64,000 bases of DNA from an uncultured Pelagibacteraceae bacterium (GTDB lineage: Bacteria; Pseudomonadota; Alphaproteobacteria; Pelagibacterales; Pelagibacteraceae). The notes beneath the pieces are model-generated. The model was not told the origin of the DNA, searched no databases, and was given only the letters and a program-made list of their open reading frames with translations. A program made the position numbers and the translations under genes. The DNA lies in NCBI GenBank assembly GCA_902615435.1, contig CACMOZ010000005.1, positions 51,005 to 115,004 of the forward strand. The letters are read 5' to 3'. Positions 28,630 to 32,477 of the stretch are shown piece by piece (the stretch's first letter is position 1; each line of letters opens with the position of its first letter).

Positions 28630-29229
28630 TTATCTTGGAGATCTTTTAGAGAGAATTCTTTGAAGAGTTCTTCTGTGCATTTTTAACCTTCTAGCCGTTT
28701 CAGAAACATTTCTGTTACATAGCTCAAATACACGATGAATATGTTCCCATTTCACTCTATCTGCAGACATTGGATTTTCTGGTGGTCTTGCTTTTGACTC
28801 TGGTGAAGCAAGTAATGCTGATTCTACGTCGTCAGCATCTACTGGTTTAGCTATATAATCTATAGCACCAGCCTTGACGGCTGCTACAGCCGTAGGAAGA
28901 TTCCCGTATCCCGTTAACATCACTATTCTTGATTCTTTTTTGTTTTTTGCGAGCTCTTTAACAACATCTAGTCCATTACCATCCTCAAGCCTCAAATCCA
29001 CGCAAGCAAAACCTGGAGGCGAAGTTTTAACGATATTAAGTCCCTCGGCTACTGTTTTAGCCTCTTTTACCTTAAAACCCTTCTTTTCCATGGCTCTTGC
29101 TAGCCTACTTCTTAAAGGATCGTCGTCATCCAAAATAAGTAAAGATTTGTCAGCAAAATCAGACAATTTTAGCTGTTCCGGTATATTTCTTTGAGCTCTC
29201 ATACCATCCAATATAAGCACTGTGGACAT
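28630..29229 (-). CDS. regA: Redox response regulator RegA/ActR/PrrA
   Basis: LLILDDDDPLRSRLARAMEKKGF, DLRLEDGNGLDVV, Fis-type HTH KMHRRTLQRILSKRSPR. Confidence 0.9.
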   Translation of the reverse strand: MSTVLILDGMRAQRNIPEQLKLSDFADKSLLILDDDDPLRSRLARAMEKKGFKVKEAKTVAEGLNIVKTSPPGFACVDLRLEDGNGLDVVKELAKNKKESRIVMLTGYGNLPTAVAAVKAGAIDYIAKPVDADDVESALLASPESKARPPENPMSADRVKWEHIHRVFELCNRNVSETARRLKMHRRTLQRILSKRSPR

Positions 29230-29273
29230 AATTACAACGTCTCAAAATGGCTTTTTTTTCTTTACATAAAGTC

Positions 29274-29333
29274 AAAAAAACCTTAAACGCGGAATTATTA
29301 AGGTTTTTTTTATTAAATTTTTTAAAAAACCTT
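29274..29333. promoter_or_regulatory. Overlapping terminator-like hairpins in the regA/odc divergent region (candidate RNA switch)
   Basis: AAAAAACCTTAA (29275-29286), TTAAGGTTTTTTTT (29298-29311), AAAAAACCTT (29324-29333): middle segment complements both flanks. Confidence 0.55.
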
Positions 29334-29364
29334 TGTGTAAACTAACTAACGAGGGACACATGAG

Positions 29365-30546
29365 ATGGGAAAATTTAAAACAGTTAACGAATTAGTTAAC
29401 TCATTAAAACCAGATTACCCCGTATATTGCATACGGCCTAAAGAGATTAAAAAATCCGTAAATTTTTTTAAAGAAAATTTTCCAGGGAAAATTCTTTATG
29501 CCGTAAAAACAAATCCTAACGAAAAAATAATTAAACAGATAATCTCAAATGGTATCAATGAATTTGATGTTGCTTCTTTAAATGAAGTAAAATTGATTAA
29601 TAAAATTTTTCCTGAAGCAAAACTGCATTTCATGCATACTGTAAAGAGTAAAGAGAGTATTACATCTGCTTATAATGATTACAATATAAAAAGTTTTTCA
29701 TTAGATAGTAAAGATGAATTAAGGAAAATTTTGGATGCTACTAATCAAGCAAAAGATTTAGAACTTTTTGTAAGAATAGCTATTTCTAATGAGCATGCAG
29801 AAATTGATTTATCAAGAAAGTTTGGCGCTCTTCCTTCAGAAGCTTTAGGACTAGTAAGACTTTGTAAACAACACGCTAAAAAATTAGGAATAAGTTTTCA
29901 TGTAGGATCTCAATGTATGCATAAAATTTCTTATTCGAAAGGTATAAAAGAAATAGGAGTCATAATTAAAAAAACTAAAATAATTCCAGATATAATTAAT
30001 GTTGGTGGTGGTTTTCCATCCATTTACCCAGATTTAAATCCAGAACCTTTATCAAACTACATAATAGAGATTAAAAAAGAACTTAATAATTTAAAATTAG
30101 ATAGATTGCCTGAAATTATATGTGAGCCAGGAAGAGCAATAGTAGCTGAAAGTGGTTCTACCATTGTTAAAGTAATTTTGAGAAAGAAAAATAATCTTTA
30201 CATTAATGACGGAACTTATGGATCGCTTTTTGATGCTGGTGCACCAAACTTTGTGCTTCCTTCAAAAATGATTACGGAAGGAAGAGCTCAATCAAAAAAA
30301 CTTACTGCATTTAGTTTTTTTGGGCCAACTTGTGATGGCTTAGATTATATGAAAGGACCTTTCTTGCTGCCAAATAATATTAAAGAGGGTGATTACATAG
30401 AGTTAGGTCAGTTAGGAGCTTACAGCTTAACATTTAGAACTAACTTTAATGGATTTTACTCTAATGAAATTCATGAATTAAGTGACAAACCAATTATGTC
30501 CATGTACGATGATCTTGATAAAAAAGTTGGATCATTAGTAGCTTAA
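29365..30546 (+). CDS. Ornithine (or lysine/ornithine) decarboxylase, PLP fold III
   Basis: YAVKTNPNEKIIKQI, SFHVGSQC, DIINVGGGFPS, CEPGRAIVAESG, FFGPTCDGLD. Confidence 0.92.
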   Translation: MGKFKTVNELVNSLKPDYPVYCIRPKEIKKSVNFFKENFPGKILYAVKTNPNEKIIKQIISNGINEFDVASLNEVKLINKIFPEAKLHFMHTVKSKESITSAYNDYNIKSFSLDSKDELRKILDATNQAKDLELFVRIAISNEHAEIDLSRKFGALPSEALGLVRLCKQHAKKLGISFHVGSQCMHKISYSKGIKEIGVIIKKTKIIPDIINVGGGFPSIYPDLNPEPLSNYIIEIKKELNNLKLDRLPEIICEPGRAIVAESGSTIVKVILRKKNNLYINDGTYGSLFDAGAPNFVLPSKMITEGRAQSKKLTAFSFFGPTCDGLDYMKGPFLLPNNIKEGDYIELGQLGAYSLTFRTNFNGFYSNEIHELSDKPIMSMYDDLDKKVGSLVA

Positions 30547-31595
30547 TGGAAAAAAAAGACAGTCCAAATATTGGACATAATAAAAAATCTCTTCTCAACT
30601 CTCCGGTAGAGCACATCGACATCAAATCGTTTGACGCACGTAAAATTATTGAAAGTATGGGTAAAATGTCTTTTACTTCAAGAGATACTGCTAGAGCAGC
30701 AGAAATTTATAATGAAATGTTAGCTGATAATGATTGCTCAATATTTCTCACTTTAGCCGGTTCTACCTCAGCAGGTGGGTGTATGGATCTTTACACTGAT
30801 TTGGTAAAACATAATATGGTTGATGCTATAGTGGCTACAGGAGCGTCCATAATTGATATGGATTTTTTTGAAGCATTGGGTTTTAAGCATTATCAAGGGT
30901 CTCAATTTGAAGATGACACAAAGCTTCGTAAAAACTATATTGATAGGATTTACGATACATATATTGACGAGGAAGAGTTACAAGCATGCGATCAAACAAT
31001 TTGTGATGTAGCTAATTCACTAAAACCAAAAACTTACACTTCAAGAGAGTTTATTAAAGAGTTAGGCAAATTCTTAAAAACTAATTCGAAAAAAAAAGGT
31101 TCGTTAATAGAAACAGCGTATGAAAATAACGTTCCAATTTTTTGTCCCGCATTTACTGATAGTTCTGCCGGATTTGGTTTGGTAATGCATCAAGAACAAA
31201 ACCCTGACATGCATATTACAATTGACTCTATTAGAGAATTTAGAGAATTAACAGAAATTAAACTACGAACTAAACAATCAGGTTTATTAATGATAGGTGG
31301 TGGAGTCCCAAAAAATTTTATTCAAGACACTGTAGTATGTGCCGAACTTTTAGGAAAAAAAGTTGATATGCATAAATATGCAATTCAAATTACTGTTGCA
31401 GATACACGTGATGGAGCCTGCAGCAGTTCTACTCTTAAAGAAGCAAGCTCATGGGGCAAAGTAGATATTACTAAGGAACAAATGGTTTTTGCAGAAGCTA
31501 CAAGTGTTTTACCTTTGATTGCTAGTGATGCTTATCACCGAGAAAATTGGAAAAAAAGAGATAAAAGAAATTTCTCTAATATTTTTAAATCATAG
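30546..31595 (+). CDS. Deoxyhypusine synthase family protein (polyamine aminobutyltransferase-like)
   Basis: LTLAGSTSAGGCMDLYTDLV, DAIVATGASIIDMD, SSWGKV catalytic-lysine region. Confidence 0.88.
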   Translation: MEKKDSPNIGHNKKSLLNSPVEHIDIKSFDARKIIESMGKMSFTSRDTARAAEIYNEMLADNDCSIFLTLAGSTSAGGCMDLYTDLVKHNMVDAIVATGASIIDMDFFEALGFKHYQGSQFEDDTKLRKNYIDRIYDTYIDEEELQACDQTICDVANSLKPKTYTSREFIKELGKFLKTNSKKKGSLIETAYENNVPIFCPAFTDSSAGFGLVMHQEQNPDMHITIDSIREFRELTEIKLRTKQSGLLMIGGGVPKNFIQDTVVCAELLGKKVDMHKYAIQITVADTRDGACSSSTLKEASSWGKVDITKEQMVFAEATSVLPLIASDAYHRENWKKRDKRNFSNIFKS

Positions 31596-32477
31596 ATGAA
31601 ATACCTCAGTCCAAAAAAAGGTTTCTTAGGTATTGATGCTGATCAAAAAATAACTCCTCAAGTAATCGTAGTTCCTTTTGGTTTGGAAAAAACAGTAAGC
31701 TATGGCGGAGGTACAAAAAATGGACCTAAAGAAATTATCAAAGCATCTCATCAAGTAGAGTTATTTGATGAAGAACTTAATAAAGAACCGTATAAAGAAA
31801 TAGGGGTTAAAACTTTAAAACCTTTTCCTATAAAACATAAAATTAAAAGTGCTCTAGACCAATTATCAAAAATTAATGACGATATTATCTCTAGTGGAAA
31901 ATTTCCTCTAGTTTTTGGCGGTGAACACTCAATTACACCTGGTTCGATCAAGCCCTTTGTCAAAAAATTCAATGAAATAACTCTATTACATTTTGACGCT
32001 CATGCTGATTTAAGAGAGAGTTACCTAGGTGAAAAATTTTCCCATGCTTCAGCTATTAAGAGATGTTTAGATAACAAAAATTTAAAAGTAGTTTCGTTTG
32101 GTATTAGAAATTTATCCAAAGAAGAAATGGATTTTTATAATAATAATAGAGACAGAATTGAAATATTTTGGGGAAAAGATAAACAAACGTGGGATTTGTC
32201 TTTAATAGAAAAATTTTTTAAAGATAAAAATGTTTATATTACTTTTGATGTAGATGGTTTTGACTCAAGTATTATGCCTGCAACTGGCACACCTGAACCT
32301 GGCGGTATGCTTTGGGAAGATGTTTTGCCTATAATAAAAAAGGTTTGTCAGATTTCAAATATTGTTGGTGCTGATATCAATGAGCTAGCGCCTATAAAAA
32401 ATTTTGACTCTTATAATTTTCTTGTTGCTAAGTTAGCTTATAAAATTATTTCATACTCTTTTGAATTTAAGAATTAA
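31596..32477 (+). CDS. speB: Agmatinase/arginase family ureohydrolase
   Basis: GGEHSIT, LLHFDAHADLRESYLG, ITFDVDGFDSSIMPATGTPEPGG. Confidence 0.92.
   Translation: MKYLSPKKGFLGIDADQKITPQVIVVPFGLEKTVSYGGGTKNGPKEIIKASHQVELFDEELNKEPYKEIGVKTLKPFPIKHKIKSALDQLSKINDDIISSGKFPLVFGGEHSITPGSIKPFVKKFNEITLLHFDAHADLRESYLGEKFSHASAIKRCLDNKNLKVVSFGIRNLSKEEMDFYNNNRDRIEIFWGKDKQTWDLSLIEKFFKDKNVYITFDVDGFDSSIMPATGTPEPGGMLWEDVLPIIKKVCQISNIVGADINELAPIKNFDSYNFLVAKLAYKIISYSFEFKN

Follow-up and report, generated by a model that had tools for sequence, protein, structure and literature searches.

We believe that the gap between regA and odc in this SAR11 genome is best explained as holding two promoters placed back to back, together with the 5' leader (about 69 nt) of the odc operon mRNA. 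We give this explanation as a whole a probability of roughly 0.6. The leader would be a SAR11-specific, diverged counterpart of the published odc1 motif that acts on translation initiation and is not an attenuator. SAR11 bacteria rank among the most numerous in the sea and possess few transcription factors, and an RNA leader conserved on their putrescine operon would be a plausible site of post-transcriptional control. All statements about structure made here are comparative or computed.

The window is the whole stretch of DNA analysed, 64,000 nucleotides from a SAR11 member of the Pelagibacteraceae with HIMB058 and many single-cell genomes among its named relatives. We compared the region upstream of odc from 208 loci of Pelagibacteraceae. 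Genera carry the working labels g1, g2 and so on, and the window belongs to g1. The genes concerned are:

28630-29229, minus strand: regA, a redox response regulator of the ActR/PrrA/RegA type, the divergent neighbour of odc (NF033791 above cut-off)
29365-30546, plus strand: odc, a PLP-dependent decarboxylase of the ornithine/DAP type (Pfam PF02784 and PF00278)
30546-31595, plus strand: a deoxyhypusine-synthase-family protein (PF01916; NCBIfam NF002699 above cut-off)
31596-32477, plus strand: agmatinase (TIGR01230 above cut-off)

The operon has the order odc, deoxyhypusine-synthase-family gene, agmatinase, and the regB kinase is located past it. regA and odc are divergent in 207 of the 208 loci. 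The initial annotation was right that the hairpin between them is not an end-of-gene terminator. The length of the gap is nearly constant within the genus, mostly 130-135 bp. Of 200 dinucleotide shuffles, 198 fold less well than its plus strand (z -2.8); folding of the minus strand is unremarkable by the same comparison (z -1.4). The leader element is single-copy in its own genome, where the SAR11 leader model gives one strong match and the next at E 2.3. The sole other copy of a 21-bp piece of the element lies in what is apparently coding sequence (G000:C1:8167-8187), and we take it as a chance match since its surroundings read as coding. A search for odc in the sister family f2, run without a positive control, returned none at E 1e-30.

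We assign the odc promoter as follows:

29260-29266, plus strand: -35 element CTTTACA, identical in 193 of 208 SAR11 loci and a near variant in the others
29283-29292, plus strand: -10 region TTAAAC and then a GC-containing discriminator (CGCGG), with TAAA, TATT or ATA found in every clade at a constant distance from CTTTACA
29294-29298, plus strand: predicted odc transcription start, about 29296, set 7 nt past the -10

The -10-like site (TAAA, TATT or similar) stands 17 nt after CTTTACA at invariant spacing and is often followed by YGC. The strict pattern of CTTTACA with TANAAT is not enriched in the genome itself, at 2 against 9 in controls, so we base the promoter call on how well the pair is conserved and spaced. 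Outside SAR11, four alphaproteobacteria (L312, L313, L338 and Sphingomonas L353) have this element before odc too, with the 17-nt spacing unchanged. Sphingomonas parapaucimobilis has CTTTACA-17-TATTTCGCG, to be compared with CTTTACT-17-TATTTG at the SAR11 locus L155. We infer that transcription of odc starts near 29296. The same rule, applied to the Sphingomonas leader of odc1 type, puts its twin start codons at about 74-76 and 79-81, as against the published 75-77 and 80-82. The discriminator at 29287-29292 is CGCGG-like and contains G and C, as does that of the Sphingomonas promoter; a GC-rich discriminator can be a sign of stringent control.

Downstream of this start we place the following elements of the leader:

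29300-29333, plus strand: hairpin H1, 29300-29309 paired with 29324-29333 across a U-rich loop
29304-29323, plus strand: a T8-ATTAAA-T6 tract, conserved in the alignment of several genera, the core of which has one exact match in its own genome
29334-29360, plus strand: hairpin H2 (UGUGU:ACACA), 29334-29338 paired with 29356-29360, with the Shine-Dalgarno sequence in its loop
29351-29355, plus strand: Shine-Dalgarno sequence (SD) GAGGG, a conserved G-rich block
29330-29355, plus strand: an alternative and exclusive fold, CCUUUGU (29330-29336) with ACGAGGG (29349-29355), that would mask the SD and is present in the plus-strand fold of the whole gap
29360-29395, plus strand: an upstream out-of-frame ATG at -5 and its 11-codon uORF, MRWENLKQLTN*, from counts of ATG offsets and frame lengths

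The initial annotation described three segments, AAAAAACCTTAA (29275-29286), TTAAGGTTTTTTTT (29298-29311) and AAAAAACCTT (29324-29333), which are present letter for letter, and proposed that segment 2 pairs either with segment 1 as a terminator or with segment 3. The pairing of segments 2 and 3 is H1. All 10 of its pairs show changes on both sides among 87 distinct sequences, and its covariation is 0.515, against 0.073 in a tree-aware null in which substitutions are redistributed on the odc tree (0 of 300 reach it). A mix-and-match comparison that uses no alignment agrees: segment 2 pairs with its own segment 3 at -7.2 kcal/mol and with those of other clades at -4.9, most clearly in AAGAG:CUCUU, AAGC:GCUU, AGGG:CCCU and AAGA:UCUU. 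Many g1 loci pair AAGG with UCUU, and such G-U pairs point to RNA rather than to a DNA palindrome. On this comparative evidence we regard segments 2 and 3 as a genuine RNA hairpin at the 5' end of the odc leader. The stem is AU-rich. Triple-helix and kissing-loop roles for the U-rich loop were considered and dropped, there being no evidence for them. The T8-ATTAAA-T6 tract is conserved although its distance to the transcription start and to the SD varies; binding of ribosomes or of an RNase would be our guess at its role.

H2 begins one nucleotide past the end of H1, so the two can stack. Its covariation is 0.158 against 0.025 in the tree-aware null (2 of 300), which is weaker than that of H1. 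In g3, g8 and g10 the letters of the stem differ and pairing is kept (UUUGUU:GACAAA, UGUUU:AAACA and UAUAU:AUAUA), with compensated changes in g3 and g10 at L183, L188, L190, L193 and L109. Mix-and-match across genera gives 1 of 5000, uncorrected for relatedness, and in g9 and g12 little H2 is formed by energy. A covariance model built from 17 leaders was run on 96 chosen loci and recovered the leader in 90 of them (E below 0.045). In its alignment, which leans towards the model structure, 94.6% of the H1 and H2 cells are paired; 14 of the 15 pairs are altered on both sides, and double-change cells number 192 against 49 when shuffled. That H1 and H2 both covary sustains the earlier proposal that the leader of this polyamine operon contains a conserved cis-acting RNA structure. 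We also considered TGTGTAA/ATTAAA as a minus-strand promoter, and this is disfavoured: the H2 pairing is kept in g3 and g10 despite sequence change, and g4 is without the -35 part.

The second feature of the leader is its twin start. The window reads ATG-AG-ATG at 29360-29367, and an ATG exactly at -5 of the odc ATG is found in 100 of 149 distinct leaders, while other offsets, from -3 to -21, occur at most 5 times each. All 143 SAR11 loci with a twin start use ATG. Their uORF has 11 codons in 107 and 18 codons in 30, the longer form being the usual one in g3, g9 and g12. The stop of the 11-codon frame may be a by-product of conserved odc codons.

This arrangement resembles odc1 (uORF-25-1) of alphaproteobacteria, whose two UUG starts are separated by 2 nt and which has an 11-aa uORF in all representatives, an RBS within the right arm of a single long P1 and a pseudoknot between the 5' end and a loop (PMC8632094). 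A reporter in E. coli showed use of both starts, that of the uORF giving about three times as much as the other (PMC8632094). Like odc1, the SAR11 leader is promoter-proximal, lies upstream of odc, has about the same length, carries an additional start codon with exactly 2 nt between it and the main one (offset 5) and ties the SD into its structure; the uORF that overlaps odc in the window has 11 codons, a length that may simply follow from conserved odc codons. The odc1-type Sphingomonas locus L353 further shares with SAR11 the CTTTACA-17-TAnnnn promoter and a deoxyhypusine synthase gene downstream of odc. There are also differences. SAR11 starts with ATG and odc1 with the noncanonical UUG; the SD of SAR11 sits in the H2 loop, whereas the RBS of odc1 is in the P1 stem; and SAR11 has the separate 5' hairpin H1. 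No counterpart of the odc1 pseudoknot was recognised in the SAR11 leader. L353 and L313 fit the odc1 description, with the SD in the P1 arm (a long stem), TTGNNTTG and an 11-aa uORF. Their start regions are TTGAGTTG and TTGAATTG, and their uORFs, LSCTRIIARWG and LNWPSTIARWG, both end in IARWG, unlike the MRWENLKQLTN of SAR11.

The SAR11 leader is thus a probable diverged counterpart of odc1 and not a member, because the promoter, approximate length, start offset and odc-dhs order are shared and the fold, start codon and peptide differ. Common descent of the promoter and the twin start is likely. Judging from this comparison, the twin-start leader of odc may well be older, and more widely distributed, than odc1 as published, with its RNA fold rebuilt in SAR11. 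Another alphaproteobacterium outside SAR11, L351, has ATGAGATG at 1481-1488, a twin ATG, an 11-aa uORF (MRCPTCHGFGL) and an SD within a short hairpin. A search with the L351 ODC for further odc1-type leaders returned nothing at a threshold that was too strict. The odc1-type leader of L313 has no Rfam match, so odc1 may be absent from Rfam 15.

Other known leaders are more distant. The initial annotation had pointed to the alphaproteobacterial speF motif. This element, Rfam RF00518, has a long bulged stem and sits in an ornithine decarboxylase leader some 400 nt in length (PMC1273637). The SAR11 leader likewise belongs to an ornithine decarboxylase gene and is conserved from near the transcription start, but a cmscan of all Rfam families, speF included, gave no match at the gathering score or up to E 10. 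For speFL and the Salmonella speF leader, in gammaproteobacteria, control is reported at several levels, the mRNA taking one conformation at low arginine and another at high arginine (PMC6386406). Leader control of an inducible ODC gene is what they have in common with the SAR11 leader; no comparable ORF or structure was found in the latter. The SAR11 leader motifs of Meyer 2009 and Stav 2019 are similar in being short structured SAR11 leaders found by comparison, and the main texts of those papers mention neither odc nor ornithine decarboxylase (PMC2704228, PMC6429828).

If the leader works on initiation, H1 would cap the odc mRNA and stack on H2. The SD would become accessible to ribosomes only once H2 opens or, in g1, once segment 3 releases it from the alternative pairing. 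Ribosomes would then select either the upstream ATG, making an 11-codon peptide, or the odc ATG, and the leader would in this way set ODC output at translation initiation. Regulation through the leader is an inference, and so is any ligand, such as a polyamine, that would shift the balance.

The alternative that survives best is a passive leader. H1 would protect the 5' end of the mRNA, H2 and the U-rich stretches would fix a constant translation rate, nothing would be sensed and the upstream ATG would be tolerated noise. The AU-rich H1 with its U-rich loop suits this idea, and so do the report that SAR11 lacks transcriptional regulation of many carbon oxidation functions (PMC8437039) and the behaviour of g4, most genomes of which have dropped both H2 and the upstream ATG and retain a 5' hairpin of other sequence. 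Scattered losses occur in other groups as well. However, the deep lineages g1, g2, g3, g7, g9 and g12 keep the upstream ATG at a single offset, which is hard to see as noise, and the odc1 counterpart has start-codon-specific effects in reporters (PMC8632094). We therefore regard a passive leader as possible but distinctly less probable than control of initiation. The lineages themselves make the function of the twin start testable, by comparing those that retain it (g1, g3, g9, g12) with most g4 genomes, where it was lost with H2.

A more elaborate form of control at initiation may apply within g1. The initial annotation had proposed an exclusive switch in which segment 2 chooses between segments 1 and 3. 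Pairing 2:3 co-evolves and 1:2 fails in clades C and g2, so the switch is not supported in that form in this genus, but the idea of competing folds survives in g1 if the SD, and not segment 1, is taken as the third partner. The g1 partition function is split, with a mean P(H1) of 0.40 and the SD paired upstream with a mean probability of 0.63. Segment 3 would pick segment 2, giving H1 with the SD exposed in the H2 loop, or the SD, which is then masked, at nearly equal energies. A polyamine or ornithine signal that shifted this balance, and with it the choice of start codon, would make this a minimal start-codon-selecting riboswitch; we think that doubtful. We rejected a conserved switch in which segment 3 masks the SD, since it fits g1 yet the covariation of the segment 3:SD helix is not above the tree-aware null.

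The g4 leaders raise the question of early intrinsic termination. These genomes (L112-L142, L216, L217) have 5' hairpins of other sequence, each directly before T8-RTTAAA-T8 and the SD, with a mix-and-match energy of -8.0 for own arms against -4.9 across leaders (0 of 5000). They look terminator-like and are maintained through compensatory change in 25 distinct g4 leaders. A hairpin so kept directly before T6-10 could stop part of the transcripts some 30-40 nt after the start, a device that g1 would have lost or altered. But several g4 stems are almost pure A-U (-3.4 to -7 kcal/mol), the predicted g1 transcript has no hairpin directly before T8, and the T8-RTTAAA-T8 tract is conserved in both the g1 and the g4 settings. 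We consider this explanation improbable.

Transcription attenuation, in which a 1:2 terminator hairpin alternates with a 2:3 antiterminator, fares worse still. Segments 1 and 2 form a perfect 12-bp inverted repeat followed by T8, and theirs is the stronger hairpin when the whole gap is folded. The position of segment 1 relative to the promoter tells against it:

29275-29286, plus strand: segment 1, spacer and -10 region of the odc promoter, a DNA element whose 3' end overlaps the -10

Segment 1 thus falls inside the invariantly spaced -10 region, and with a start near 29296 it is predicted to be untranscribed, so the 1:2 terminator would be unable to form in the odc mRNA. The initial annotation had held that a start downstream of 29310 would count against it. 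The predicted start does not quite reach that point, yet it is already past segment 1. The 1:2 pairing collapses in clades C and g2; in clade C segment 2 pairs with its own segment 1 at -3.5 kcal/mol and with those of other clades at up to -7.4. No conserved plus-strand promoter further upstream is seen in the gap alignment. The covariation across SAR11 loci that the annotation had called for is there for 2:3; for 1:2 it amounts to a slight excess in fixed register (0.107 against 0.055 in the tree null, 4 of 200), which we read as composition and the TTAA core, not function. Attenuation is very unlikely to be the answer, and the 1:2 terminator is rejected on either strand, toward regA as well.

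Equally unlikely is a DNA-level operator, with palindromic A/T tracts binding a regulator such as RegA between the divergent promoters: the gap is indeed shared with regA in 207 of 208 loci at nearly constant length within the genus, but the arms co-change by complementary and G-U substitutions, the sequence differs per clade and the two strands do not fold alike (z -2.8 against -1.4).

The regA side completes the pair of promoters:

29200-29202, minus strand: conserved regA start codon, Met10 of the longest ORF, a conserved CAT column in the gap alignment
29210-29237, minus strand: probable regA promoter TTGTAA-16-TATATT, from a consensus scan, both halves conserved in the alignment

Homology to regA starts only at residue 9-19 in many relatives. 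The ORF called from the first ATG is probably 9 residues too long, with the conserved start at Met10 (29202), so the 135-bp gap of the initial annotation is right by longest ORFs and not by the conserved start. Minus-strand sites resembling the regA promoter, by a loose pattern, occur in 159 of 208 loci. The promoter probably gives a near-leaderless mRNA that begins at Met10. In its predicted position it overlaps the N-terminus of the regA ORF as called (window 29200-29229).
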